Assembly (NCBI GenBank): GCA_016125475.1 | Contig: WGLR01000004.1 | Span: 1-64,000 of the forward strand | Source of the DNA: Betaproteobacteria bacterium | GTDB lineage: Bacteria > Pseudomonadota > Gammaproteobacteria > Burkholderiales > Ga0077523 | Length of the DNA: 64,000 nt | Reading direction: 5' to 3' | Shown: positions 37,037 to 51,322 of the stretch, one piece after another | How the letters are laid out: each line of letters opens with the position of its first letter | Numbering within the stretch: the stretch's first letter is position 1 | Position numbers and translations under genes: made by a program | Notes under the pieces: generated by a model | Databases searched by the model: none | What the model was told of the DNA's origin: nothing | What the model saw: only the letters and a program-made list of their open reading frames with translations

Positions 37037-37597
37037 TCAGGCCGCGATGCGGCGGCGGTATTCGCCCGTGCGCGTGTCGATCTCGATCCGGTCACCGGTC
37101 GCGCAGAAGAGTGGCACCGATACCTCGAAGCCCGTGTTGATCTTCGCCGGCTTCAGCACCTTGCCGGACGTGTCGCCGCGCACCGCGGGCTCGGTGTAGG
37201 TGATCTCACGCACGACCGAAGCCGGCATCTCCACGGAAATCGCGCGACCCTGATAGAACACGACCTCGCACTCGAGCCCGTCCTCGAGGTAGTTGAGCGC
37301 GTCGCCCATGTTGTCCTTCTCGACCTCGTACTGGTTGTACTCTGCGTCCATGAAGACGTACATGGGGTCGGCGAAGTAGGAGTACGTGCAGTCCTTGCGG
37401 TCGAGCACGACGACGTCGAACTTCTCGTCCGCACGATAGACGCTCTCCGAGGTGGAACCCGTGAGCAGGTTCTTGAACTTCATCTTCACCACGGACGCGT
37501 TGCGTCCGGACTTGTTGAACTCGGCGCGCTGCACCACGAGCGGGTCGTTCCCGACCATGATCACGTTGCCGACGCGCACTTCCTGGGCGGTCTTCAT
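37037..37597 (-). CDS. efp: Elongation factor P, Arg32 type
   Basis: A 186-residue translation factor that relieves ribosome stalling at polyproline stretches. The three OB-like domains are full length. The modified loop reads [12 protein letters not shown], placing Arg at position 32, the residue rhamnosylated by EarP in Neisseria and Pseudomonas. E. coli-type EF-P has Lys34 in the loop modified by EpmA/EpmB. The gene for EarP is 59 bp upstream in the same direction. A strong terminator ends the unit. Confidence 0.97.
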
Positions 37598-37656
37598 AGG
37601 GAGCCTTGCTAAAAAGCGGATTGACGGGGGTAAGGGTTTGAAAACTAGACCGAAGA

Positions 37657-38814
37657 TTATAGCCGCTCGACACTGAATCTGACCAGATTGCCGGCGAGAT
37701 CTCCGAGGGCGCGCAGACCGGCCGTCCACGCGGCGTTGTGGGCGCGAAGGTCGTCCCGCAGGTTCCAGAAGCGTCGCCACGCGGCTCCGATCACGGACGC
37801 CGACGTTTCTCCGCGGTTCCACAGCCGCCAGAACTCCCGGACAGCCGCGATCGCGTCGTCGTCCAGACCTGCCCCGTACCGGGTCACGAACGCGTGCATC
37901 TTCGCCCAGTGCGCGCCCCCTTCCTGGGCGTAGATGTTCCAGACGAACGGACTCTCCGCCCACTGCGCGCGCACGAAGGAGTCCTCGCCGCGCACGAAGT
38001 TGCAGTCGCTCGCCCAGAGCAGCCGGTCGTAACCGGGCTGGGTCTGGAACGGCAGGACACGCAGATCGAGCGCGTCGAGGCCGAACCGCTCCCCGGCGTG
38101 CGCTTCGGTCCGGCCGAAGACCGAAAGGGCGTCGGGCAGGATGCGGCTTTCCGGGACGAGCACGCAGACGGGCTCGCTCCCCTCGGCCCACGCACGAAGC
38201 AGCGCGGGTACGGCCGGGCCGCCGTAGCCGAAGAGGGAAATGACCGACGTGCCGTCCGGCGGAGGAACCATGCCCCATGCCTGCCACAGGCGGGCCCGGG
38301 CGGACGCATCACCGAGGAAGTCCCGGCGCTGCGTCACGAGGTCCCGCTCGCAGAGGACGCCACCGGTGTTCTCCGTGAAGCCGGGGAAGAAGAAATGGCG
38401 CACGAGCGGAAATCGCGGGTGCCTCGACGGGACGCGATGGCAGTCCTCGATCCAGTCTTCCGCGCTCAGATACTCGAGATTGATCCAGACCGGCGCGTGC
38501 CGACGCCGGGCCATCGCCTCGAGATAGGCTTCCGGGGCGCGTGACCCGAAGGCGTCGATCGCGACGTCGGCAGGGTCCCCGAAGGACAGGGGGCTGGTCC
38601 ACTTGCGGATCGTGACGCCGGCGACTTCCTGCGACTCGAGCGCGGGCGAGACATCCGCGCAGAGCACGTGAAACGTCTCGAGGTCGTCCACGAAGAGCCG
38701 CACCCGCGCGCCGTGCTCGGCGTGCAGCTGGCGCGCGAGGCGCCACGAGACGCCGACGTCGCCGAAATGGTCGACGACGTTGCAGAAGATGTCCCACGAC
38801 ACCGCGGCGGTCAT
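37657..38814 (-). CDS. earP: EF-P arginine rhamnosyltransferase EarP
   Basis: A 385-residue GT-B glycosyltransferase (formerly DUF2331) that transfers rhamnose from dTDP-L-rhamnose to Arg32 of EF-P. The N-terminus [20 protein letters not shown] contains the two conserved aspartates (D15 and D19 here). The nucleotide-sugar-binding motif [10 protein letters not shown] is near the C-terminus. The ATG at 38814 gives the standard N-terminus. It directly precedes efp, so enzyme and substrate are likely co-expressed. Confidence 0.96.
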
Positions 38815-38866
38815 GCGCGACCGCGGCGCCCGATGGCGCAGTCCGGCCAGGGCCGCCGCGTCGTGG

Positions 38867-39469
38867 TCAGTACTTGACCGAACATCCGTAGGCTGTCGTC
38901 GAGGGCTCGGAGACCGCCTTGCCGGCGAGCGCCTCGTCGAGCGCCGCCGCCACGAAGTTTCTCGCCCGGGCAATGTCTTCCTGACGCCAGGTCGGCATGT
39001 CGTCGATCGCGCCCGCGTAGATCACGGTGCCCTCGGGATCGATCACGAACATGTGCGGCGTCGCCTTCGCTCCGAAAGCTCGCCCGACACGGCCGTCCTC
39101 GTCGAGCATCAGGGCCGCGGAACGCATCTTCCACTCGCGGGCGATCGCGCGGGAGTGTTCGGCATCCCGGTAGTCCGCGTGCTTCCGGCTCGTGGAGTTG
39201 ACGGTGAGCCAGACCACGTTCCGCGCGGCGTATCGGCCCTGCAGGGCCTGCATGTTCCCGCTCTCGTAGTGCTTCTGGACGAACGGGCACCCGCGATTGA
39301 ACCACTCGAGCACCACGAACCTGCCCCGATAGTCCGCGAGGCGATGCGTCCTGCCCTCGACGTCCGCCAGGGAAAAGTCGGGTGCGGGCTTGCCGGGCAC
39401 GGCGGCCGCGAACGATGGCCCGCAGACGAGCGCCGCCAGCACCACCAGAGCACGCATCGATTCTTTCAT
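38867..39469 (-). CDS. Exported redoxin/TlpA-like protein
   Basis: About 200 residues of AhpC/TlpA-type thioredoxin fold. A signal peptide ends at SFAAA. The active site is WFNRGCPFVQKHYE, with a single cysteine and no CxxC, typical of the redoxin group with CPFVQKHY. A C-terminal cysteine (YGCSVKY) is also present. The ATG at 39469 shares a base with the dsbD stop (TGATG), so it is translationally coupled to the upstream reductase, which may supply electrons to it. GTG 39472 and ATG 39457 are alternative starts. Confidence 0.85.
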   Translation of the reverse strand: MKESMRALVVLAALVCGPSFAAAVPGKPAPDFSLADVEGRTHRLADYRGRFVVLEWFNRGCPFVQKHYESGNMQALQGRYAARNVVWLTVNSTSRKHADYRDAEHSRAIAREWKMRSAALMLDEDGRVGRAFGAKATPHMFVIDPEGTVIYAGAIDDMPTWRQEDIARARNFVAAALDEALAGKAVSEPSTTAYGCSVKY

Positions 39470-41628
39470 CACCGGTTTCCTCCACTCGGGTTGTCACCCG
39501 GAGACGCCGTCGCGCGGTCGATCGCAGCCATAACGATGTCGCGCGTCAGCAGTTCGGGCAGCAGTTCCGGCGCACCGCCGCCGGCAGGATAGAAGACGTA
39601 GACCGGCACGCCGCTGCGGCCGAGTCGGGCGAGTGCGCGTCCGATCTCGTCGTCCCGATTGGTCCAGTCGGCGAGCAGCCGCGTGACACCGTGCGACTCG
39701 AATGCGCGCACCACGGGCTCGGTGTCGAGCACCACCCGCTTGTTGACCTGGCACGTCACGCACCAGGCCGCCGTGAAGTCCACGAAGACCGGGCCTGCGG
39801 CCCGAGCGGTCGCGAGTGCCGCTTCGGAATACGGCGTCCACGACCCCTCCGCCTGTCGTCCCGGCAGCGCGGGCGGCTCGGCGGGCGGCCATCCGAAGAG
39901 GACGGCGCTCGCCACGAACACTGCCGCCACGAGGCCGCCGCGCCACGGTGTCCGGTCGCCGAATCGTCGCCAGGCCCAGGCCGCCGCCGCGAGCAGGACG
40001 AGCGCGGCCAGCAGCCGGGCGCTGGCGGAAGTGCCCAGCTGTTCGCCGTACACCCAGACCAGCCACACGACCGTCAGGTAGAGCGGGAACGCGAGGAACT
40101 GCTTCAGGGATTCCATCCACCGCCCCGGACGCGGGAGCCACCGGGTCAGGGCCGGAAAGATCGACAGCAGCACGTACGGTGCTCCCATTCCGAGCGCGAG
40201 CGCCGTGAACACCGCCATGGAGGTCGCCGCGGGCTGCGTGAGCGCGAATCCGAGGGCCGCCCCCATGAAGGGCGCGGTGCAGGGTGTCGCGATCGCGGTG
40301 GCGAGCATCCCGCTCAGGAACGCACCGCCGAGCCCGTCGCGCTCGCGCACGGTGCCGGCGAGTGTCTGAAGCCGCGTGCCGATCTCGAAGACGCCGCTCA
40401 GGTTCAGCGCGAGCAGGAAGAACAGGACCGCGAGGGTGGCAATGATCGGGGGGGACTGCAGCTGGTAGCCCCAGCCCAGCGCCTCGCCGCTCGCGCGAAG
40501 CCCCAGCAGGAACGCGGCAACCAGCCAGAAGCACACCACGATCCCGGCGGCGAAAGACAGGCCGTGCCGGCGCAGGTCGCGCCGGTCACCGTGCGCGTGT
40601 TCGACGAATCCGAGCACCTTGATCGAGACCACCGGAAAGACGCACGGCATCAGGTTGAGGATCAGCCCGCCGACGAACGCGAAGGCCACGGCGGCCGCGA
40701 GGCCGAGATCCTTGCCTGAAACCGTCGCGCCGCGGATCTCGTCGGCCGTCATGCCGGCTTCGGGTGCTGCGGCTTTCACGTCGGGGACACCGCCCGGATA
40801 CGGCACGGAGACCTCCGCGGCTCGCACGAGACCCTCGTCGTCGAGTCCCGGTTCCGCGACGAGCAGGCCCTCGATGGCCCGGACATCGCCCCCGAACGTC
40901 GGTGCCGCCATGAGCAGGAGCCTGTAGCCCTGGTCCGTCCGCTCGAGGGTCTGCGCGGACGGGTTGTCGATGACGTCGGGCGTTTCGGGGAAGAACGCGG
41001 CCCGCGTGAGCGGCCGTGCACCGGCTTGTCCGGGCCTGAGGTCGAGCACGATGTTGCGGGGTGTGACCGACGCGCTGACCCGCCACCCCGTGAGTGCGTG
41101 GGGGATGCGCGCCCGCTCGGCCTCGATTTTCGGTCCCCAGACAGGATCGGGGCGGGAGGCGCCGGCCGCCGTCGGGACCGTGAGTTCGAGGGTGGCGCCG
41201 CCGGGCAGGCAGACTTCCTTGCAGATGAGCCAGTCCGCCTGGGCGCGGAGCGGCAGGGGTTTGCCGGCGGGCCACGAGGCGGGCACCGAAACGTCGGTGA
41301 GGAGCAGCAGGTCGCCCTCGTACCCGTAGTTCGTGAGCGGCCCGACGTCGATGCGTTCGGGAACGGGCCACTGGATCGGGCCTGCGGTGACACCGTCCGG
41401 GAGCCGCCACGCGATGCGGGTGGCCATGCCGGAGTCGCCGGGGTTCTTCCAGTAGGTGTGCCAGCCGGGATCGTGCACCAGGTGGAGGCCCACGGTGACC
41501 ACCTCACCGGGCCGTGCCACGGCGGCCGAGGACACGAGATCCGCCATCGCGTTCGGGACTCTGACGGGAGCAGCCGCTGCCGCGGACGCGACTGCGAGCA
41601 GCAGTCCGGAGAGGAAAAACTTCAGCAT
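39469..41628 (-). CDS. Protein-disulfide reductase DsbD/ScsB family
   Basis: A 719-residue inner-membrane reductant transporter. It has a signal peptide, then an N-terminal periplasmic domain (HDPGWHTYWKNPGDSGMATR, with cysteine pair DWLICKEVCLPG). A DsbD transmembrane domain of about eight helices follows (NLMPCVFPVVSIKVLGF, then TPCTAPFMGAALGFAL). The C-terminal thioredoxin domain carries the active site AAWCVTCQ. Electrons pass from cytoplasmic thioredoxin to periplasmic partners. The N-terminal domain is ScsB-like rather than classical DsbD alpha. Coupled to the redoxin gene downstream. Confidence 0.9.
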   Translation of the reverse strand: MLKFFLSGLLLAVASAAAAAPVRVPNAMADLVSSAAVARPGEVVTVGLHLVHDPGWHTYWKNPGDSGMATRIAWRLPDGVTAGPIQWPVPERIDVGPLTNYGYEGDLLLLTDVSVPASWPAGKPLPLRAQADWLICKEVCLPGGATLELTVPTAAGASRPDPVWGPKIEAERARIPHALTGWRVSASVTPRNIVLDLRPGQAGARPLTRAAFFPETPDVIDNPSAQTLERTDQGYRLLLMAAPTFGGDVRAIEGLLVAEPGLDDEGLVRAAEVSVPYPGGVPDVKAAAPEAGMTADEIRGATVSGKDLGLAAAVAFAFVGGLILNLMPCVFPVVSIKVLGFVEHAHGDRRDLRRHGLSFAAGIVVCFWLVAAFLLGLRASGEALGWGYQLQSPPIIATLAVLFFLLALNLSGVFEIGTRLQTLAGTVRERDGLGGAFLSGMLATAIATPCTAPFMGAALGFALTQPAATSMAVFTALALGMGAPYVLLSIFPALTRWLPRPGRWMESLKQFLAFPLYLTVVWLVWVYGEQLGTSASARLLAALVLLAAAAWAWRRFGDRTPWRGGLVAAVFVASAVLFGWPPAEPPALPGRQAEGSWTPYSEAALATARAAGPVFVDFTAAWCVTCQVNKRVVLDTEPVVRAFESHGVTRLLADWTNRDDEIGRALARLGRSGVPVYVFYPAGGGAPELLPELLTRDIVMAAIDRATASPGDNPSGGNR

Positions 41629-41739
41629 GGAGACGATTCCAGGTCGGCGCGCCGGTAAGACGTTCCGGGCGGGCGCGAGTTCACCACGAGAGCGCCTTCG
41701 GGGCAAGGACGGCCCGCCCTTGCGGACTGCCCGCCGGTA

Positions 41740-42831
<1,092 letters not shown>

Positions 42832-42934
42832 CGTGTGGTCGGTGTGCCGGCTCGCGGGCCTGCGTCTGCGGAGTGTCGTCGGGGCGCACCGTTCGTGTGC
42901 CCATCCTTGAAGATGGTGCCGGCCGGACCCGCCT

Positions 42935-44299
42935 TCAATCCGTCTCGCACCACTTCTCGACCGTATAGCGGGAAACGCGGACGTCCGAGGCCCAGAAATC
43001 CGCCGGCAGCCCTGCCTTCCGCTTCAGGTGGCCCAGAAATGCCGCCGGATCCGGCAGGCTGTCCCAGACCTGCGGGAGGAACGTGCCGCGATGGCCGGCG
43101 TATTCGAGCACCAGCCCGTCGACGCCGGGCCGCAGTCGGGAGAGCAGTTCGGGCTCGGACGAGAACGCGACGGGTTCCTGGGCCGAGAGCACGCTCACCT
43201 CCACGCGGATGCCGTCGAACTCGCGCAGGGAGAGGGGACGGAAGCGCGGATCGAGGAACGCGGCGGACCGCGCGTTGTTCTTGACGTCGTCCACGAGGGG
43301 CCGGTGCGCTTCCAGACTGCCGATGCAACCGCGCAGGGCGCCTTCGCGCGTGAGCGTCACGAAGCTCGCGCCGTGCACGCGCAGGAACGGAGAATCTTCC
43401 CGGGCGGTGAGGGAAAGGCCCAGTTGTCTCGCGATCGTCGCCCGCGCGATCCGGAGCAGCGTGTCGCCCCTGTCGTCGGTGGCGTTCTTCGCGGTCGTGC
43501 CGCCGTCGGCGTAGGCCGCGATCGACGCGTAGCCCACGACCTGCCGGCGGTCGCCCGCCGTGTCGCCCGAGTTCCGGAGATCGAGCAGTTCCAGACGCAG
43601 CCCCCGGCGCCGTGCCACCAGCGTCAGTGCGTTGACGGGCGTTGCGCCGCACGCGTGGGCGTGATCGATGTCTGCCGCGAGCGCGAGCACCTCGCGCACG
43701 GTCTGCTGGTCGGTCCGGCGGGCCACGTCGTAGGGCAGGTAGTGGGAGAGGTCCGAACTCACGACCACGAGCGTGTGTTCGTCGCCCCAGACGCGCTCGA
43801 GCACTTCCGCGACCGCCGTGGGCGACGCGTCACCGACCGCGAGCGGCAGCAGCCGGAAATCGCCGAGGGTTTCCTGCAGGAACGGCAGATGGACCTCGAG
43901 CGAGTGCTCGAGCGCGTGGGCCTCCGGGCTCACGACCACCTGTGGCAGGTCGGCGATCGCCCGGACGGCCTCCGTGTCGACGTCGATCGATCCGAGCGGC
44001 GTCTCGAAGCGCGTCGCGCCGGGCAGGGCGACCCCGCGAACGGGCACACGATGCGTCGGGCCGAGGAGCACGACGGTGTGCACGCGACCGCGCAGTGGCG
44101 CGATCCGCGCGTAGGCGCTCGCAGCCACGGGGCCGGAATAGACATAGCCCGCGTGCGGTGCGATCAGCGCCTTCGGTGGCGGTTCGTCGCGGTGGGGTCT
44201 CGCATCGTCGAGCAGCCGCTGCACGTCGCGGTGCAGGACCGCGGGGTCCGCCGGGTAGAAGGTTCCGGCCACCGCCGGATGCCGCACTTCGGTTTGCAT
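42935..44299 (-). CDS. AmmeMemoRadiSam proteins B and A fused (Memo-AMMECR1)
   Basis: A 454-residue fusion. Residues 1 to about 265 are a Memo-like domain, distantly related to nonhaem iron dioxygenases (VAGTFYPADPAVL, IAPHAGYVYSGP, VSSDLSHYLPYD, HACGATPVNA). After a short linker, residues ~280-454 are an AMMECR1 domain with the signature LRGCIGSLEAHRPLVDDV. Both families are conserved in archaea and eukaryotes with unresolved function. The fusion and the adjacent radical SAM gene make a complete AmmeMemoRadiSam module. A TetR gene is divergent on the other side. Confidence 0.93.
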   Translation of the reverse strand: MQTEVRHPAVAGTFYPADPAVLHRDVQRLLDDARPHRDEPPPKALIAPHAGYVYSGPVAASAYARIAPLRGRVHTVVLLGPTHRVPVRGVALPGATRFETPLGSIDVDTEAVRAIADLPQVVVSPEAHALEHSLEVHLPFLQETLGDFRLLPLAVGDASPTAVAEVLERVWGDEHTLVVVSSDLSHYLPYDVARRTDQQTVREVLALAADIDHAHACGATPVNALTLVARRRGLRLELLDLRNSGDTAGDRRQVVGYASIAAYADGGTTAKNATDDRGDTLLRIARATIARQLGLSLTAREDSPFLRVHGASFVTLTREGALRGCIGSLEAHRPLVDDVKNNARSAAFLDPRFRPLSLREFDGIRVEVSVLSAQEPVAFSSEPELLSRLRPGVDGLVLEYAGHRGTFLPQVWDSLPDPAAFLGHLKRKAGLPADFWASDVRVSRYTVEKWCETD

Positions 44300-44381
44300 C
44301 GCACGCTCCAGTCGTCCCGCAGGACGCTCGACGAGTCACGCATGGGTGACTCGCACCGTGGCAGGTCGGGAGTGTCGAGCC

Positions 44382-44411
44382 TTGACCCGCCTGCGCAGGG
44401 GTCACTATAAT
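44382..44411 (+). promoter_or_regulatory. Sigma70 promoter of the TetR gene
   Basis: TTGACC (44382-44387) and the perfect -10 TATAAT (44406-44411) are separated by 18 bp. The -10 lies 36 bp before the ATG of the TetR regulator. It is one of the best consensus promoters in the window. Confidence 0.78.
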
Positions 44412-44447
44412 CTGTCCTCAAGGGCCATCCGCGGGAATCACGACATC

Positions 44448-45122
44448 ATGTCCAAAGCCTCCGCCCCGACGACGGCGCGCTGGACGCGTCGCAAGGATGC
44501 GCGCCCGGCCGAACTGCTTGCCGCGGCGCTCGACATCTTCGTGGAGAAAGGCTACGCGGCCACCCGGCTCGACGATGTCGCGCGGCGCGCAGGCGTCAGC
44601 AAGGGAACCCTCTACCTCTACTATGACGGCAAGGAAAGCCTTTTCAAGGCCGTCATCCGGACCGGACTCATTCCCGCGATCCAGCGTGGCGAGCAGGTGT
44701 TCGACGAGCACCTCGGCACCATGACCGAACTGCTCGAGAAGATCATCTTCGGCTGGTGGGAATCGGTCGGCACCTCGCAGCTGAGCGGCATTCCGAAGCT
44801 GATGTTCGCGGAGGCCAAGAATTTCCCGGAACTCGCGGAGTTCTACTACCAGGAGGTGATCAGCCGCGGCTACGGTCTCGTGCAGCGCGTGCTCGTCGAG
44901 GGACGGCAGCGGGGCGAGTTCGTGGAGGTCGATCCGCGCTACGGTACCCGTCTCGTCCTGGCCCCGCTCGTGTTCCTTCTCCTCTGGCGGCATTCGTTCA
45001 GTGCTTGCGAGCCGCAGCCCATCGACCCCGAGGCGTTTCTCCGGTTGCACCTGACGCTCGTGCTGGACGGTCTGCGCGTGGGGCCGCGCACGCCCGTCGC
45101 GGCCGGATCGGCTGCCTCGTGA
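44448..45122 (+). CDS. TetR/AcrR family transcriptional regulator
   Basis: A 224-residue regulator. The helix-turn-helix is in residues ~20-70: ILFVEKGYAATRLDDVARR-like DIFVEKGYAATRLDDVARRA, followed by GVSKGTLYLYYDGKESLF. The C-terminal ligand domain is variable. It lies immediately upstream of the RND efflux operon on the same strand, the normal position for a repressor of a drug efflux pump. The ATG at 44448 is chosen over the longer frame because it follows the promoter. Confidence 0.9.
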   Translation: MSKASAPTTARWTRRKDARPAELLAAALDIFVEKGYAATRLDDVARRAGVSKGTLYLYYDGKESLFKAVIRTGLIPAIQRGEQVFDEHLGTMTELLEKIIFGWWESVGTSQLSGIPKLMFAEAKNFPELAEFYYQEVISRGYGLVQRVLVEGRQRGEFVEVDPRYGTRLVLAPLVFLLLWRHSFSACEPQPIDPEAFLRLHLTLVLDGLRVGPRTPVAAGSAAS

Positions 45123-45348
45123 CCTGACGGCATCCGGCGCGAGCGCGGCACGTGCCTCCCGCACGGATGCGCCGGGGCGTGCTGCCCTGCATGCTTGCTA
45201 TCATCGCGAACCCGGGTCCGTCGCATGCCGCCACGACGGGGCCATGCCGCCGGTCCGCGAACGGGCCCGTCGCGGGATCTTCCCGGTTTCGCGGGCGCGG
45301 TGCAGGGGGCCGCGGGCCCTTGCCGACCTGCAGTTGGAGCTTACACAT

Positions 45349-46434
45349 ATGACAGGTGCTGACGCGCGATTCGCCGCGTGGCTGATCGCGATGACCTGCC
45401 TTGCCGGGTGCAAGCCGGCCGAACCACCGCCGGAACCGCCGCGCGCCGTGAACGTGGTGCGGATCGAGGCCGGAAAGGGTGCGAACACCGCGAACTACAC
45501 CGGCGACGTCCGTGCGCGTTACGAGACCGCGCTCGGCTTCCGGGTCGGCGGCAAGATCGCGTCCCGGCTCGTCGACGTCGGGGACGTCGTGCGGAAGGGA
45601 CAGGTGCTCATGCGGCTGGACCCCTCGGACCAGCGCCTGAGCGAGCAGGCCGCGGGCGACGCGCTGAGCGCCGCCCGTGCGTCGCACGACCAGGCCGTCA
45701 CGGACTTCAAGCGATTCGAAGACCTGTTCCGGCGCGGCTTCATCAGCGCGGCCGAGTTCGACCGGCACAGGACCACCCTCGATGTCGCGACGGCTCGTCT
45801 GTCGGAAGCGCGTGCCCAGCTGGACATGGCGCGCAACCAGGCGGACTACACGACCCTGCACGCACAGGCCGACGGCGTGGTGACACTTGTCGACGCCGAG
45901 GCCGGACAGGTCGTCGGGCCCGGTCAGCCGGTCGTGCGCGTGGCGCGCCCCGGCCAGAAGGAAGTGGCGTTCAGCGTGCCGGAGAACCAGCTCGATCGCG
46001 TACACAGCGGCGTCTCCGTTCGCGTGGATCTCTGGGCCCTTCCGGGTCACGCGTATGCGGGGCGCGTGCGCGAGGTCTCGCCCGTGGCGGATCCGGTCAC
46101 GCGCACGTATCTCGCGAAGGCATCCATCACCGACGCCGACCGCCAGGTGCAACTCGGCATGACGGCCGCCGTGCACGTCGAGGAGGGCGAGTCCCCGTCC
46201 GTGATCCGCCTGCCGACGACCGCACTGTTCCAGAAGGGTGACGACACGGCCGTCTGGGTCGTGGATCCCGCGAGCAGCCAGGTCACCCTGAGGCCCGTGA
46301 AGGTCGGCCGCTACGCGGAAGACTACATCACGGTCGTCGAGGGTCTCGAACCCGGCCAGATGGTCGTGCGCGCCGGTGTGCAGAAGCTCTTCCCGAACCA
46401 GAAGGTCAGGGTCCTCGCCGATCGCGCCCAATGA
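45349..46434 (+). CDS. RND efflux periplasmic adaptor subunit (lipoprotein)
   Basis: A 361-residue membrane fusion protein. The lipobox LAGC puts the acylated cysteine at residue 21. The barrel-hairpin pattern is clear: YTGDVRARYETALGFRVGGK, then a coiled-coil hairpin (ALSAARASHDQAVTDFKRFE) and the return strand TLHAQADGVVTLVDAEAGQV. It bridges the inner-membrane pump to an outer-membrane channel, and no TolC-like gene is adjacent. The ATG at 45349 has TTGGAGC upstream. The stop overlaps the pump start by 4 bp. Confidence 0.92.
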   Translation: MTGADARFAAWLIAMTCLAGCKPAEPPPEPPRAVNVVRIEAGKGANTANYTGDVRARYETALGFRVGGKIASRLVDVGDVVRKGQVLMRLDPSDQRLSEQAAGDALSAARASHDQAVTDFKRFEDLFRRGFISAAEFDRHRTTLDVATARLSEARAQLDMARNQADYTTLHAQADGVVTLVDAEAGQVVGPGQPVVRVARPGQKEVAFSVPENQLDRVHSGVSVRVDLWALPGHAYAGRVREVSPVADPVTRTYLAKASITDADRQVQLGMTAAVHVEEGESPSVIRLPTTALFQKGDDTAVWVVDPASSQVTLRPVKVGRYAEDYITVVEGLEPGQMVVRAGVQKLFPNQKVRVLADRAQ

Positions 46435-49400
46435 TCCCGACCCGACCGAACATCTCGAAGTGGGCGCTCGAGCACCCGATGCTGGTGTTCTACTTCATGG
46501 TGGCGTTCGCGGTCGCGGGCGTGTACTCGTATCTGAAGCTCGGCCAGGCCGAGGATCCGGATTTCACGTTCAAGATCATGGTCGTGCGCACGCTCTGGCC
46601 GGGGGCGACCGCGCGCGAGGTCGAACTCGAGGTGACCGAACGGCTGGAGAAGAAGCTCGAGGAAGTGCCGTATCTCGACTATACGAAGAGCTTCTCGCGG
46701 CCGGGCGAGTCGCTCATCTTCGTGCACCTGAAGGACGGTGCGCCGCCGAAGGAAGTCCCGAACGCCTGGTACCAGGTCAGGAAGAAACTCTTCGACATCC
46801 ACTACACGCTGCCCTCGGGGGTGCGCGGCCCGTTCTTCAACGACGAGTTCGGGGACACCTTCGGCAACATCTACGCGTTCACGAGCGACAGCTACTCGTT
46901 CGCGGAGATGCGCGACTACGTCGAGGACGCGCGGCGCGAACTGCTCCAGGTAAAGGACGTCGGCAAGGCGGAGATCCTCGGGGAGCAGCCCGAAAAGATC
47001 TGGATCGAGGTCTCGCATCGCAAGCTCGCGACGCTGGGCATCGATCCGATGAGCCTGTTCGCGGTCCTGCGTGCGCAGAACGAGATGACTCCCGCAGGCC
47101 GTTTCGAGACGCCGAACGACCGCGTGTTCGTGCGCGTGTCGGGCGACTTCAAGTCGGTCGAGAGCATCCGCGAGATCGGCATCGAGGCCAACGGCCGCCT
47201 CTTTCGCCTCGGCGACATCGCCACCGTGCGGCGGGGATACGCCGACCCGCCGGAAGTCCTCATGCGGTTCAACGGCCACCCGTGCATGGGGCTCGCCGTG
47301 TCCATGCGCAAGGGCGGGGACATCATCGCGATGGGGCACGCGCTCGCGCGCACGATGGACCGCCTGCGGGCGGAGCTGCCCGTCGGCATCGAGGTCCACC
47401 GCGTCGCGGACCAGCCGACCGTCGTGTCGCGCTCGATACACGAGTTCATGCGCACCCTCGGCGAGGCCGTGGTCATCGTGCTCGCGGTGAGCTTCCTGTC
47501 GCTCGGGCTGCGGACCGGCGTGGTCGTCGCGCTGTCCATCCCGCTCGTGCTCGCGATCACCTTCCTGTGCATGCGCATCTTCGGCATCGACCTGCAGCGG
47601 ATCTCGCTCGGGGCGCTCATCATCGCGCTCGGCCTGCTCGTGGACGACGCGATCATCGCGGTCGAGATGATGGCCATCAAGATGGAACAGGGCTGGGATC
47701 GCCTGCGGGCGGGGGCCTTCGCCTACACGTCGACGGCCCCGTCCATGCTCACCGGCACGCTCATCACGGCAGCCGGCTTCCTGCCCGTGGGGCTCGCCAA
47801 ATCGAACGCAGGCGAATACACGTTCTCGATCTTCGCGGTGGTGAGCATCGCGCTGCTCGTGTCCTGGGTGGTCGCGGTCGTCTTCATTCCGTACATGGGG
47901 TTCCACCTCCTGCCCGACTACACGCGTCAGACGCAGGCGCCCGGACTGATCTCCCGGCTCGCGGCCCGGCTCTGGTCACGCGACGCGAAGCACCCCGACA
48001 CGCGTGCGACGGAAGGGGAGGCTCACGAGAAGGATGTGTATCAGGGGCCGTTCTACCGGCGGTTCCGCGCCGTGGTGACATGGTGCGTGACGTATCGCAA
48101 GACCGTCATCCTGGCCACGATCGGCTCGTTCCTGCTCGCGGTGGCCGCCTTCGGGTTCGTGCAGCAGCAGTTCTTTCCGTCCGCGAACCGGCCCGAACTG
48201 GTCGCGGACCTCTGGCTTCCCGAAGGGTCGTCGATTCACGCGACGGCGGCCGAGGCGACGCGGTTCGAGGCGATCCTCGAGAAGGATCCCGACATCGAGA
48301 AGTTCGTGAGCTACGTCGGCTCGGGCAGTCCGCGCTTCTATCTGCCGCTCGACCAGCAGCTCGCGAGCGCGAACATCGCGGAATTCGTCATCACCGCGAA
48401 GACGCCGGACGTGAGGGACCGTCTTCAGGAGCGCCTCGTCTCCGCGCTCGAGGAGCACTTCACGCGCGTGCGCTTCCGCGTCAATCCGCTCCAGAACGGG
48501 CCGCCGGTGGCTTACCCGGTCGTGTTCCGCGTGATGGGCACCAACTTCGACACGTTGCGGGAGATCGCCCAAAAGGTGGCGAAGGTGATGCGCGCGAATC
48601 CGAACACGCGTGGCGTGCACTTCGACTGGAACGAGAAGATCAAGACCGTGAGGCTCGAGGTCGACCAGAACAAGGCCCGCCTCATCGGCATGAACTCGCA
48701 GCGGCTGTCCAGCGCACTCAATTCGCTGCTGACCGGGTATTCGATCACCGAGTTCCGCGAGCGCGACAAGCTCATCGAGGTGCTCGCGCGTGCGGACGCC
48801 GACGAGCGTCACAGCCTCGCCGACATGGGGGACATCAACGTGCCCACGCAGAGCAACCGATGGGTACCCCTGTCGCAGATCGCACGGATCCACTACGGGC
48901 TCGAGGAGGGCCTCATCTGGCGGCGGGAGCGGCTGCCCACGATCTCGGTCCAGGGTGACGTGCATGGCGCGATCCAGGCGCCCGTCGTCTCGAACCAGAT
49001 CGATCCGGAACTCGACGCGATCCGCGCCACGCTGCCGCCGGGCTACCGCATCGAGATGGGCGGTGCCATCGAGGAATCCGCGAAGGGGCAGGGGTCCGTC
49101 GTCGCCGTGCTGCCGCTCATGCTGATCACGGTCGTCACGCTGCTCATGGTGCATCTGCAGAGCATCAAGAAGTCGCTGCTCGTGCTCGTGACCGCGCCAC
49201 TCGGCATCATCGGCGTGAGCCTCTTCCTGCTCGCGGGAAGGGTACCCTTCGGTTTCGTCGCGATGCTCGGCTTCATCGCGCTGTCCGGAATGATCATGCG
49301 CAATTCGATCATCCTCGTGGACCAGATAGACCAGGACATCGCTGCCGGGCACGAACCCTGGAATGCGATCATCGACGCGACCGTGCGGCGATTCCGGCCG

Positions 49401-49592
49401 ATCATGCTCACGGCAGCCGCAGCGATCCTCGCGATGATTCCGCTCTCGCGTTCGAATTTCTGGGGACCGATGGCGGTTTCCATCATGGGGGGCCTGCTCG
49501 TGGCCACCGTCCTGACCCTTCTCGTGCTGCCGTCGCTCTACGCCGTAGCGTTCGGCGTGAAGCGCCCGGCAGCCGAATCCAACCGGACCTGA
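46431..49592 (+). CDS. RND efflux transporter permease (AcrB/HAE1-like)
   Basis: A 1053-residue proton-driven efflux pump with the twelve-helix, two-half architecture. The TM4 proton relay LGLLVDDAIIAVEMMAIKME carries the two aspartates. The N-terminus is ALEHPMLVFYFMVAFAVAGV, and the TM10-12 part ends VATVLTLLVLPSLYAVAFGV. It belongs to the HAE1 family rather than the heavy-metal CzcA group by its DxD relay context, but substrate is not predictable. Coupled by ATGA overlap to the adaptor; a gamma-glutamyltransferase gene begins 6 bases after its stop. Confidence 0.93.
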   Translation: MIPTRPNISKWALEHPMLVFYFMVAFAVAGVYSYLKLGQAEDPDFTFKIMVVRTLWPGATAREVELEVTERLEKKLEEVPYLDYTKSFSRPGESLIFVHLKDGAPPKEVPNAWYQVRKKLFDIHYTLPSGVRGPFFNDEFGDTFGNIYAFTSDSYSFAEMRDYVEDARRELLQVKDVGKAEILGEQPEKIWIEVSHRKLATLGIDPMSLFAVLRAQNEMTPAGRFETPNDRVFVRVSGDFKSVESIREIGIEANGRLFRLGDIATVRRGYADPPEVLMRFNGHPCMGLAVSMRKGGDIIAMGHALARTMDRLRAELPVGIEVHRVADQPTVVSRSIHEFMRTLGEAVVIVLAVSFLSLGLRTGVVVALSIPLVLAITFLCMRIFGIDLQRISLGALIIALGLLVDDAIIAVEMMAIKMEQGWDRLRAGAFAYTSTAPSMLTGTLITAAGFLPVGLAKSNAGEYTFSIFAVVSIALLVSWVVAVVFIPYMGFHLLPDYTRQTQAPGLISRLAARLWSRDAKHPDTRATEGEAHEKDVYQGPFYRRFRAVVTWCVTYRKTVILATIGSFLLAVAAFGFVQQQFFPSANRPELVADLWLPEGSSIHATAAEATRFEAILEKDPDIEKFVSYVGSGSPRFYLPLDQQLASANIAEFVITAKTPDVRDRLQERLVSALEEHFTRVRFRVNPLQNGPPVAYPVVFRVMGTNFDTLREIAQKVAKVMRANPNTRGVHFDWNEKIKTVRLEVDQNKARLIGMNSQRLSSALNSLLTGYSITEFRERDKLIEVLARADADERHSLADMGDINVPTQSNRWVPLSQIARIHYGLEEGLIWRRERLPTISVQGDVHGAIQAPVVSNQIDPELDAIRATLPPGYRIEMGGAIEESAKGQGSVVAVLPLMLITVVTLLMVHLQSIKKSLLVLVTAPLGIIGVSLFLLAGRVPFGFVAMLGFIALSGMIMRNSIILVDQIDQDIAAGHEPWNAIIDATVRRFRPIMLTAAAAILAMIPLSRSNFWGPMAVSIMGGLLVATVLTLLVLPSLYAVAFGVKRPAAESNRT

Positions 49593-49597
49593 CACCG

Positions 49598-51322
49598 ATG
49601 AACACACCCACGATCCCGCCGAGACTCCTTTCCTTCGCCCGAGCGCGGAGGGAATCCGCCAGGGCCTTCTTCGTCGTCCTGTTCGCCTGCCTGGTGACCG
49701 GCACCGGCGCCGCCGATGCGGCGCAGCGCTACGCGGTGGCGAGTGCGCATCCCCTCGCGACCCGCGTCGGCGAGGAGGTGCTCGCGAACGGGGGGAATGC
49801 CTTCGACGCCGCGATCGCGGTCACCGCGGCGCTCGCGGTGGTGGAGCCGTACTCGTCCGGCTTCGGAGGCGGCGGATTCTTCCTGCTGCACCGGGCATCG
49901 GACGGTCGCGACATCGTGGTCGACGCGCGCGAGATGGCGCCCATCGCGGCGACGCGCGACATGTACCTCGACGCGAACGGCGACCCCGTCCCGCGGGCCT
50001 CTCTCGACGGCGCGAAGGCAGCCGGCATCCCGGGCGTACCCGCGGGCCTCGCCTACATCGCGCAGCACTACGGTTCGCGCCCGCTCGCGCAGATGGTCGC
50101 GCCCGCGATCGCGCTCGCGAAGGATGGCTTCGCGGTCGGCGCGCGCTACCAGAGGGCGGCGCACTGGCGCGAGCAGGTGCTGCGACGCGACGAGCGGACC
50201 TCGGCGACCTTCCTCGTGAACGGTGACATTCCCGAGGCCGGTCACGTCGTGAAGCAGCCGGATTTCGCGCACACGCTCGAGGCGTTCGCGAGCGAGGGGG
50301 CGGACGGCTTCTACCGCGGACCGGTCGCCGCGGAGATGGTGCGCGCCGTGCGCGCCGGCGGGGGCATCTGGACCGCAGCGGATCTCGAGGGCTACCACGT
50401 GGTGGAGCGGGAGCCCTACCGGTTCACGTATCGTGGTGCGCGGATCGTCACCACCCCCCTCCCGTCGAGTGGTGGCCTCACGCTCGCGCAGGCCCTCCAC
50501 ATCATCGAGTGCTTCGATCTCTCCAGGCTGTCCGAGACCGACCGCGTGCACGTGATCGTCGAGGCCATGCGGCGCGCCTATCAGGATCGCGCGCGCTATC
50601 TGGGCGATGCCGATTTCGTGAGCGTGCCGCGAGAGCGTCTCGGCAGTCGCGAGTACGCGAAAGAGCGTGCCGCCTCGATCGACATGGCCCACGCGACGCC
50701 GAGTGCGTCGCTCGATCCGGCACCCGCGGTGCACGAAGGCACGAACACGACGCACTTCTCGATCATCGACGCGCAGGGCAACCGGGTCGCGGCGACGCTC
50801 AGCATCAACGCGCCGTTCGGCTCCGGGCTCGTCGCGGGTGCATCCGGCGTGCTGCTGAACAACGAGATGGACGATTTCGCGATCGCACCGCACCGTCCGA
50901 ACCTGTATGGTCTGACGGGAGCCTTCGCGAACAGCATCGCGCCCCGAAAACGTCCCCTGTCGAGCATGTCACCCACGTTCGTGGAGGATTCGCGGGGCGT
51001 CCTGGTCTTCGGCACGCCCGGAGGCTCGCGCATCATCAGCATGGTGCTGCTCGGGATACTCGACTACGTCGGCTCGCCGAAGGTCGACATCGAGCACGTC
51101 GTCGCCGCGCCGCGCTATCACCACCAGTACCTGCCCGACCACATCGAGTACGAACTGGGCACGTTCTCGGAGGCATGGGCCGACGCCCTCCGCGCAAAGG
51201 GGCACGTCGTCCAGGAGGGACGGCGACGATGGGGCAACATGCAGGCCGTCTTCGTCGACGCCGTCACGGGAGACGTCACGGCGGCGAGCGATCCGCGCGG
51301 CAAGGCGGGCCATCTCTTCTGA
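49598..51322 (+). CDS. ggt: Gamma-glutamyltransferase
   Basis: A 574-residue N-terminal nucleophile hydrolase that cleaves gamma-glutamyl bonds of glutathione in the periplasm. It has a signal segment (VVLFACLVTGTGAADA) and autoprocesses before the catalytic threonine: TNTTHFSIID, with Thr384 as the predicted nucleophile. The substrate-binding GxGG-type pattern SGFGGGGFFLLH is present. The gap to the RND pump is 5 bp, so they are almost certainly co-transcribed, an unusual pairing. It may recycle glutathione conjugates exported by the pump. Confidence 0.92.
   Translation: MNTPTIPPRLLSFARARRESARAFFVVLFACLVTGTGAADAAQRYAVASAHPLATRVGEEVLANGGNAFDAAIAVTAALAVVEPYSSGFGGGGFFLLHRASDGRDIVVDAREMAPIAATRDMYLDANGDPVPRASLDGAKAAGIPGVPAGLAYIAQHYGSRPLAQMVAPAIALAKDGFAVGARYQRAAHWREQVLRRDERTSATFLVNGDIPEAGHVVKQPDFAHTLEAFASEGADGFYRGPVAAEMVRAVRAGGGIWTAADLEGYHVVEREPYRFTYRGARIVTTPLPSSGGLTLAQALHIIECFDLSRLSETDRVHVIVEAMRRAYQDRARYLGDADFVSVPRERLGSREYAKERAASIDMAHATPSASLDPAPAVHEGTNTTHFSIIDAQGNRVAATLSINAPFGSGLVAGASGVLLNNEMDDFAIAPHRPNLYGLTGAFANSIAPRKRPLSSMSPTFVEDSRGVLVFGTPGGSRIISMVLLGILDYVGSPKVDIEHVVAAPRYHHQYLPDHIEYELGTFSEAWADALRAKGHVVQEGRRRWGNMQAVFVDAVTGDVTAASDPRGKAGHLF

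Follow-up and report, generated by a model that had tools for sequence, protein, structure and literature searches.

The closest described relatives of the locus analysed here belong to the AmmeMemoRadiSam system, which comprises protein B (Memo, TIGR04336), protein A (AMMECR1, TIGR04335) and a radical SAM enzyme (TIGR04337). RefSeq uses the gene names amrB and amrS, and one passage of a published study lists amrS, amrB and amrA together (PMC9062700). A passage in another refers to the 'recently-described Memo-Ammecr1 systems' and cites Burroughs et al. 2019 (PMC7159879), a work (J Biol Chem 294:10211) that is also cited in a passage of PMC7694686; as the citing passage presents them, these systems show the same association of Memo, AMMECR1 and a radical SAM enzyme that is found here. 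Memo-like proteins fused to RiPP recognition elements have been predicted as well, according to a passage of PMC12710340. Excerpts of a study of human MEMO1 report that the protein uses H49, H81 and C244 to bind iron or copper, that its C244S and H49A variants show no iron binding, that a glutamate occupies the cysteine position in the extradiol dioxygenases LigB, DesB and aminophenol dioxygenase, that MEMO1 had no dioxygenase activity on the substrates tried and that its primary molecular function is unknown (PMC11081632). In the openly licensed literature, the name AmmeMemoRadiSam occurred once in each of five papers, AMMECR1 together with a radical SAM enzyme appeared in passing mention only, and the search listings held nothing on the bacterial AmmeMemoRadiSam reaction; the statement in the initial annotation of this DNA that the reaction is not established was fair, since no paper establishing it was found there. 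RefSeq also holds a 464-aa homologue from Ideonella dechloratans that matches 99% of our fusion, is labelled amrB and adjoins amrS. On the 709-kb plasmid unnamed1 that carries it (L250), the fused gene and amrS lie near arsenic resistance genes, and the record calls the fused protein only protein B, which hides its A half.

We analysed a window of 64,000 nucleotides, positions 1 to 64,000 of contig WGLR01000004.1 in an assembly of a Betaproteobacteria bacterium (GCA_016125475.1). The initial annotation had described a Memo domain fused to an AMMECR1 domain, with a radical SAM enzyme 103 bp downstream, as a compact AmmeMemoRadiSam module, and each element of that description was borne out. The fusion frame has an ATG start, 454 codons and no internal stop, its two halves match TIGR04336 and TIGR04335, and Pfam concurs (PF01875, 182.5 bits; PF01871, 153.6 bits); the radical SAM gene follows on the same strand after a gap at 42832-42934, and the motifs IAPHAGYVYSG, SSDLSHYL, LRGCIG and CNLACKFCQNW are all present in the translations. 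Scores so far above the curated cut-offs are not due to chance. The window's genome contains one match each to B, A and the radical SAM family (from the genome search and, for the radical SAM family, from the searches of relatives). A scan of 41400-44700 for terminator-like sites had a single hit, inside the fusion on the other strand (shuffle mean 1.3), and none in the gap before the radical SAM gene; no Rfam family reached its gathering threshold in 40000-46500. With all three families far over their cut-offs, clustered and on one strand, the locus is almost certainly an AmmeMemoRadiSam system; it is a complete, ordinary module, which differs from the system in general in that B and A form one polypeptide, itself a common state.

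Table 1. Positions of the module, its conserved residues and its neighbours in the window, with the loci that carry a spermidine-synthase-like gene.
Feature	Position	Strand	Evidence
Memo-AMMECR1 fusion gene (AmmeMemoRadiSam B + A, one 454-aa chain)	42935..44299	-	Intact frame; two families far over cut-off
Memo / protein B domain, residues 6-261	43517..44284	-	TIGR04336, 271.9 bits (NCBIfam curated cut-off 26); same place in genome search
AMMECR1 / protein A domain, residues 280-450	42950..43462	-	TIGR04335, 195 bits (NCBIfam curated cut-off 99); same place in genome search
His49 codon, equivalent of human MEMO1 ligand H49	44153..44155	-	Profile alignment to 7kq8; H in 60/60
His83 codon, equivalent of human MEMO1 ligand H81	44051..44053	-	Profile alignment to 7kq8; H in 60/60
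Cys217 codon, equivalent of human MEMO1 ligand C244	43649..43651	-	C in 60/60
Cys325 codon, AMMECR1 LRGCIG motif	43325..43327	-	C in 59/60 fusions
AmmeMemoRadiSam radical SAM enzyme (AmrS), 363 aa	41740..42831	-	TIGR04337, 634.3 bits (cut-off 220)
Radical SAM CX3CX2C cluster motif, Cys90/Cys94/Cys97	42541..42564	-	Each C in 61/61
N-terminal Cys group C25/C28/C32/C42, possible extra metal site	42706..42759	-	C25, C32, C42 in 61/61; C28 in 58/61
C-terminal Cys group C307/C310/C333/C336, possible extra metal site	41824..41913	-	C307, C333, C336 in 61/61; C310 in 53/61, D in 8
DsbD-like gene	39469-41706	-	
Redoxin-like gene	38867-39472	-	
EarP	37657-38973	-	458.7 bits
EF-P	37037-37609	-	
Spermidine-synthase-like gene directly after the fusion (other loci)	L026, L028, L030, L036, L037, L042, L043, L044, L046, L047, L053, L054, L061		

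The three parts also keep company in other genomes. We compared 80 related loci, the best 80 of 314 confirmed stretches found with the window protein in named genomes; a phylum sample of 398 genomes searched with the B family alone (107 matched, 105 of them over the cut-off), in which 118 of the 129 listed matches were classified and 11 were left out as fragments (G164, G177, G206, G149, G093) or as below the cut-off (G319, G394 and the second match in G304); and 60 relatives, in which 31 of 33 matches were classified (those in G414, partial, and G418, below the cut-off, were omitted). B and A were fused or lay nearby on the same strand at all 80 related loci and at 110 of the 118 phylum-sample loci; fused forms always ran B then A, and a separate A gene was on the strand of B at every locus where one was found. 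In the same orientation, a radical SAM gene came no more than 350 bp after A at 59 of the 80 related loci, about 2.2-2.4 kb after A at eight and upstream at three; it was divergent at one locus and not found at nine, three of which have less than 1 kb of contig after A. Counting matches over the cut-offs, 32 of the 60 relatives had both B and the radical SAM family and 28 had neither, with A in the same 32 plus G443. Across the 398 phylum genomes the corresponding numbers were 95 with both, 10 with B only (of 105 with B), 6 with the radical SAM family only (of 101 with it) and 287 with neither, and the very small co-occurrence P values are only indicative because related genomes are not independent. 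The earlier proposals of a link between A and B and of a tie to the radical SAM enzyme are thus supported by gene linkage and, for the latter, also by co-occurrence. A occurs without B and without the radical SAM enzyme in relative G443 and without B in the control genome of Haloferax volcanii, and B occurs without A in that of Thermus composti; either can therefore have a role of its own outside the complete module. At L173, L174 and L175 the TIGR04337 members are divergent, their frames are longer (495-542 aa) and the fetched sequence showed no Memo gene; these may represent a variant system.

To place the Memo half beside its human relative, the fusion profile (89 sequences, 72 after near-copy removal, 60 of those used) was aligned to the solved MEMO1 chains; a single-sequence comparison matched the fusion to human MEMO1 at 70.9 bits over residues 6-187. 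By this alignment H49, H83 and C217 are the predicted two histidines and one cysteine of a MEMO1-type metal site. The C217 column holds serine in the C244S mutant chain 7m8h and cysteine in 7kq8, and all three residues are also invariant in the 48 separate B proteins of a second alignment, in whose 63 fused rows H49 and H83 are histidine in 59 and gaps in four. Further Memo residues, H132, D183, H186 and Y257, are invariant in 60/60 fusions and 48/48 separate B proteins; in the AMMECR1 half, D350, R352 and F353 are invariant in 60/60 fusions, and C325 is cysteine in 63/63 fused and 48/48 separate A proteins of the second alignment. The window protein therefore has the Memo family and the His/His/Cys ligands in common with human MEMO1 (7kq8, 7l5c, 7m8h), whose solved chains, unlike the fusion, are the Memo domain alone. 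A LigB-type extradiol dioxygenase was considered and rejected, since a cysteine at the third ligand position, present throughout the 60 fusions, does not give the 2-His-1-carboxylate iron site of those enzymes.

The domains, the unbroken frame, the conserved residues, the gene linkage and the co-occurrence are direct observations on this module; we infer, as to chemistry, step order and substrate alike, that its B, A and radical SAM parts on balance probably modify one cellular substrate. The division of labour that we propose among them is more tentative, a possibility somewhat short of probable. With a [4Fe-4S] cluster at C90/C94/C97, the radical SAM enzyme would cleave SAM and abstract a substrate hydrogen atom; the substrate or product would be bound or covalently held by the AMMECR1 half, which has conserved LRGCIG and DPRF motifs; and the Memo half would form a mononuclear metal site from H49/H83/C217, with iron or copper as in human MEMO1, that would serve a second, metal-dependent step and in general should not need O2. 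Fusion would keep B and A equimolar and adjacent, and the fusion and the radical SAM gene are presumably co-transcribed. As to oxygen, five of 14 control genomes contain B. Three of them belong to the strict anaerobes Thermotoga maritima, Methanocaldococcus jannaschii and Methanosarcina acetivorans, by which O2 should be dispensable for the general reaction; B also occurs in the aerobes Thermus and Sulfolobus, the other two, and in the window's host, so O2-using chemistry is possible in some members. Four COX1-family matches in the window's genome indicate that the host can probably respire oxygen. The 2019 abstract of Burroughs et al. reportedly points to nucleotide-base and isoprenoid modification.

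Alternatively, catalysis might fall to the radical SAM enzyme alone, and Memo might buffer metal or regulate redox state, the role proposed for human MEMO1. The human protein lends this reading its support, binding Fe and Cu through the same triad with, in the excerpts of the study, no enzymatic substrate found (PMC11081632). However, both the co-occurrence and close linkage of Memo with one radical SAM family and the invariance of H132, D183, H186 and Y257 look to us like the marks of an enzyme, and we regard a buffering or regulatory role as unlikely.

A more specific version of substrate modification by the module comes from a 111-row tree of 63 fused and 48 separate forms, which covers the 80 loci, the window and 30 relatives and was built by a quick method with SH-aLRT support only. 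One clade of 19 rows is mostly from Desulfobacterota, with Chitinivibrionales, Magnetococcales and an Epsilonproteobacterium, and in 13 of these 19 loci (Table 1) a gene for a spermidine-synthase-like membrane protein comes directly after the fusion; two of the other six have less than 0.5 kb of contig left. In eight of the 13 the radical SAM gene is next, which gives a four-enzyme operon. The L030 member, the only one scanned, scored 56.4 bits with PF01564, had six NCBIfam matches that were all below their cut-offs (the nearest, MFS_SpdSyn, at 35.4 against 40) and has hydrophobic segments flanking the spermidine-synthase-like domain; the other members were assigned by BLAST clustering. The gene was beside none of the 61 remaining loci of the 80, one more example (L167) came from the phylum sample, and no paper on spermidine synthase together with AMMECR1 was found in the openly licensed literature. 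Because the fusion, this gene and the radical SAM gene share an operon in a Desulfobacterota-rich clade, AmmeMemoRadiSam could be an O2-independent, SAM-consuming pathway for an amine- or aminopropyl-bearing small molecule or membrane lipid, with the window as its compact core, though we consider this quite unlikely and the lead does not apply to the window directly.

Several genomes of the phylum sample carry a second, divergent Memo-AMMECR1 fusion (L157-L166, L168-L172, L176), many of them with a second radical SAM gene that has a GVW ending and an Asp at the C310 position; L157, L160, L161, L162 and L176 also have a neighbour cluster whose scanned member contains Gate domains (PF07670). The genome search had flagged one TGA within many of these second-copy radical SAM genes. 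Selenocysteine was checked for by reading TGA as U and rejected, as in the cases inspected the TGA was an ordinary stop just past the GVW ending.

Beside the fusion in the window lies a divergent TetR-HlyD-AcrB efflux set (44346-49592, +), so in the window's genus TetR might control the module as part of an efflux regulon. The set is retained in that genus, with HlyD and AcrB at 9/9 and TetR at 8/9 same-genus loci, and the window's intergenic stretch contains a palindrome, CGAGTCAC-N6-GTGACTCG. A near-consensus promoter, TTGACC-18-TATAAT, lies at 44382-44411 (+), and a weaker promoter-like site lies upstream of the fusion at 44647-44620 (-). Against a shared regulon, the spacing differs between loci and reaches about 5 kb in L138, L139 and L145; order-level loci have a TetR match in 1/11 and HlyD or AcrB in 0/11; and of eight relatives' intergenic stretches, three have another palindrome, ACTGACCGGTCAGT, which overlaps the tetR promoter side. 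No common TetR operator was established from the intergenic stretches of the window and these eight. Only four of the 80 related loci (L018, L046, L055, L080) have matches to one or two of TetR, HlyD and AcrB, all distant (23-29% identity). We consider control of the module by this regulator very unlikely. Further along, the frame at 49598-51322 (+) resembles a gamma-glutamyltranspeptidase by eye, and seven fetched loci have a cluster whose scanned member is PF01019. Neighbours at 120 loci were clustered, and the representatives scanned for 10 of the clusters belonged mostly to generic families (GGDEF-EAL, ABC transporter, histidine kinase, AAA, TPR) that suggested no function to us; judging by where it lies in L008 and on which strand, another cluster, of 39 loci, was taken for an antisense shadow of the radical SAM gene.

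The proposed role of the radical SAM enzyme as a catalyst acting on the module's own substrate has to be weighed against its resemblance to activases. Its closest solved structure is pyruvate formate-lyase (PFL) activating enzyme (3c8f, E 3.2e-18 with a profile), with which it has the radical SAM core in common, and its secondary NCBIfam matches, all far below their cut-offs, are mostly activases, plus MoaA and a few others. From this it could be argued that the enzyme is a glycyl-radical-enzyme activase and Memo-AMMECR1 only an accessory. However, the glycyl radical domain PF01228 had no match in the window's own genome, an absence that is strong and not absolute because the assembly is 96.7% complete, while the same search was positive in three of 14 control genomes, including E. 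coli; without such a domain in the genome, the PFL-activase-like enzyme probably acts on something else, and an activase role is highly improbable. Unlike PFL-activating enzyme, the window's family also has additional N- and C-terminal cysteine groups (alignment of 61 sequences, from 103 found and 93 kept), whose conservation marks them as possible extra metal sites.

The initial annotation had also noted DsbD, redoxin, earP and efp genes next on the same strand, which coordinates and family matches confirm, and had tentatively raised a redox or protein-modification link. Same strand and close spacing in the window would suit a module that works with these genes in redox chemistry or EF-P modification, and in L138 the same four genes reappear, beginning about 4 kb beyond the radical SAM gene. 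That is the single case among nine same-genus loci, for which 1/7 is the fair figure because the sequence of L137 and L145 stops at the radical SAM gene or no more than 0.75 kb from it; none of the four genes was found at the 80 related loci (tblastn E 1e-5, flanks of up to 10 kb, shorter at contig ends) or at 11 order-level loci, these sets overlapping slightly (L137/L003, L139/L007 and L152/L065 are the same places). The co-occurrence check that had been suggested for dsbD, redoxin and earP was therefore negative, and a functional link to these neighbours is barely credible. EF-P adjoins its rhamnosyltransferase EarP (37037-38973, -) as an ordinary pair of its own, and the window EF-P carries SGRNAS, which we take to be the region of the modified Arg.

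The fusion itself is neither new nor rare. Two more same-genus genomes, only 79% and 64% complete, had none of B, A and the radical SAM enzyme, and the fused state is stable in the window's genus. In the phylum sample 58 of 118 loci were fused, 52 separate and eight had B with no detected A, some of these near contig ends. The relatives gave 14 fused and 17 separate. The tree requires at least 13 switches between the fused and the separate state (six or more if only well supported branches are counted; shuffled labels average 36), so the B-A pair has been fused or split repeatedly. The novelty that the initial annotation implied is not supported for a fusion that is common, recurrent and already in RefSeq, and the window is one more example of a known system and a known kind of fusion, not a new system. 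A frameshift or assembly error, for which nothing speaks beyond about half of the sampled loci having separate genes, has practically no chance of explaining the fused frame, given fusion at 9/9 same-genus loci (58-69% identity for the seven included in the alignment) and at 49 of the 80 related loci (31 separate; a set that leans towards fusions because the query was itself fused), and a fused homologue annotated by RefSeq in a complete plasmid.

The arrangement of this module is real, already named and common, and makes a useful, unsurprising example. AMMECR1, which is disease-linked, is to our knowledge as unexplained as MEMO1, and both domains are widespread. With the human metal ligands conserved, the bacterial fusion and its dedicated radical SAM partner offer a convenient form in which to seek the ancestral reaction.
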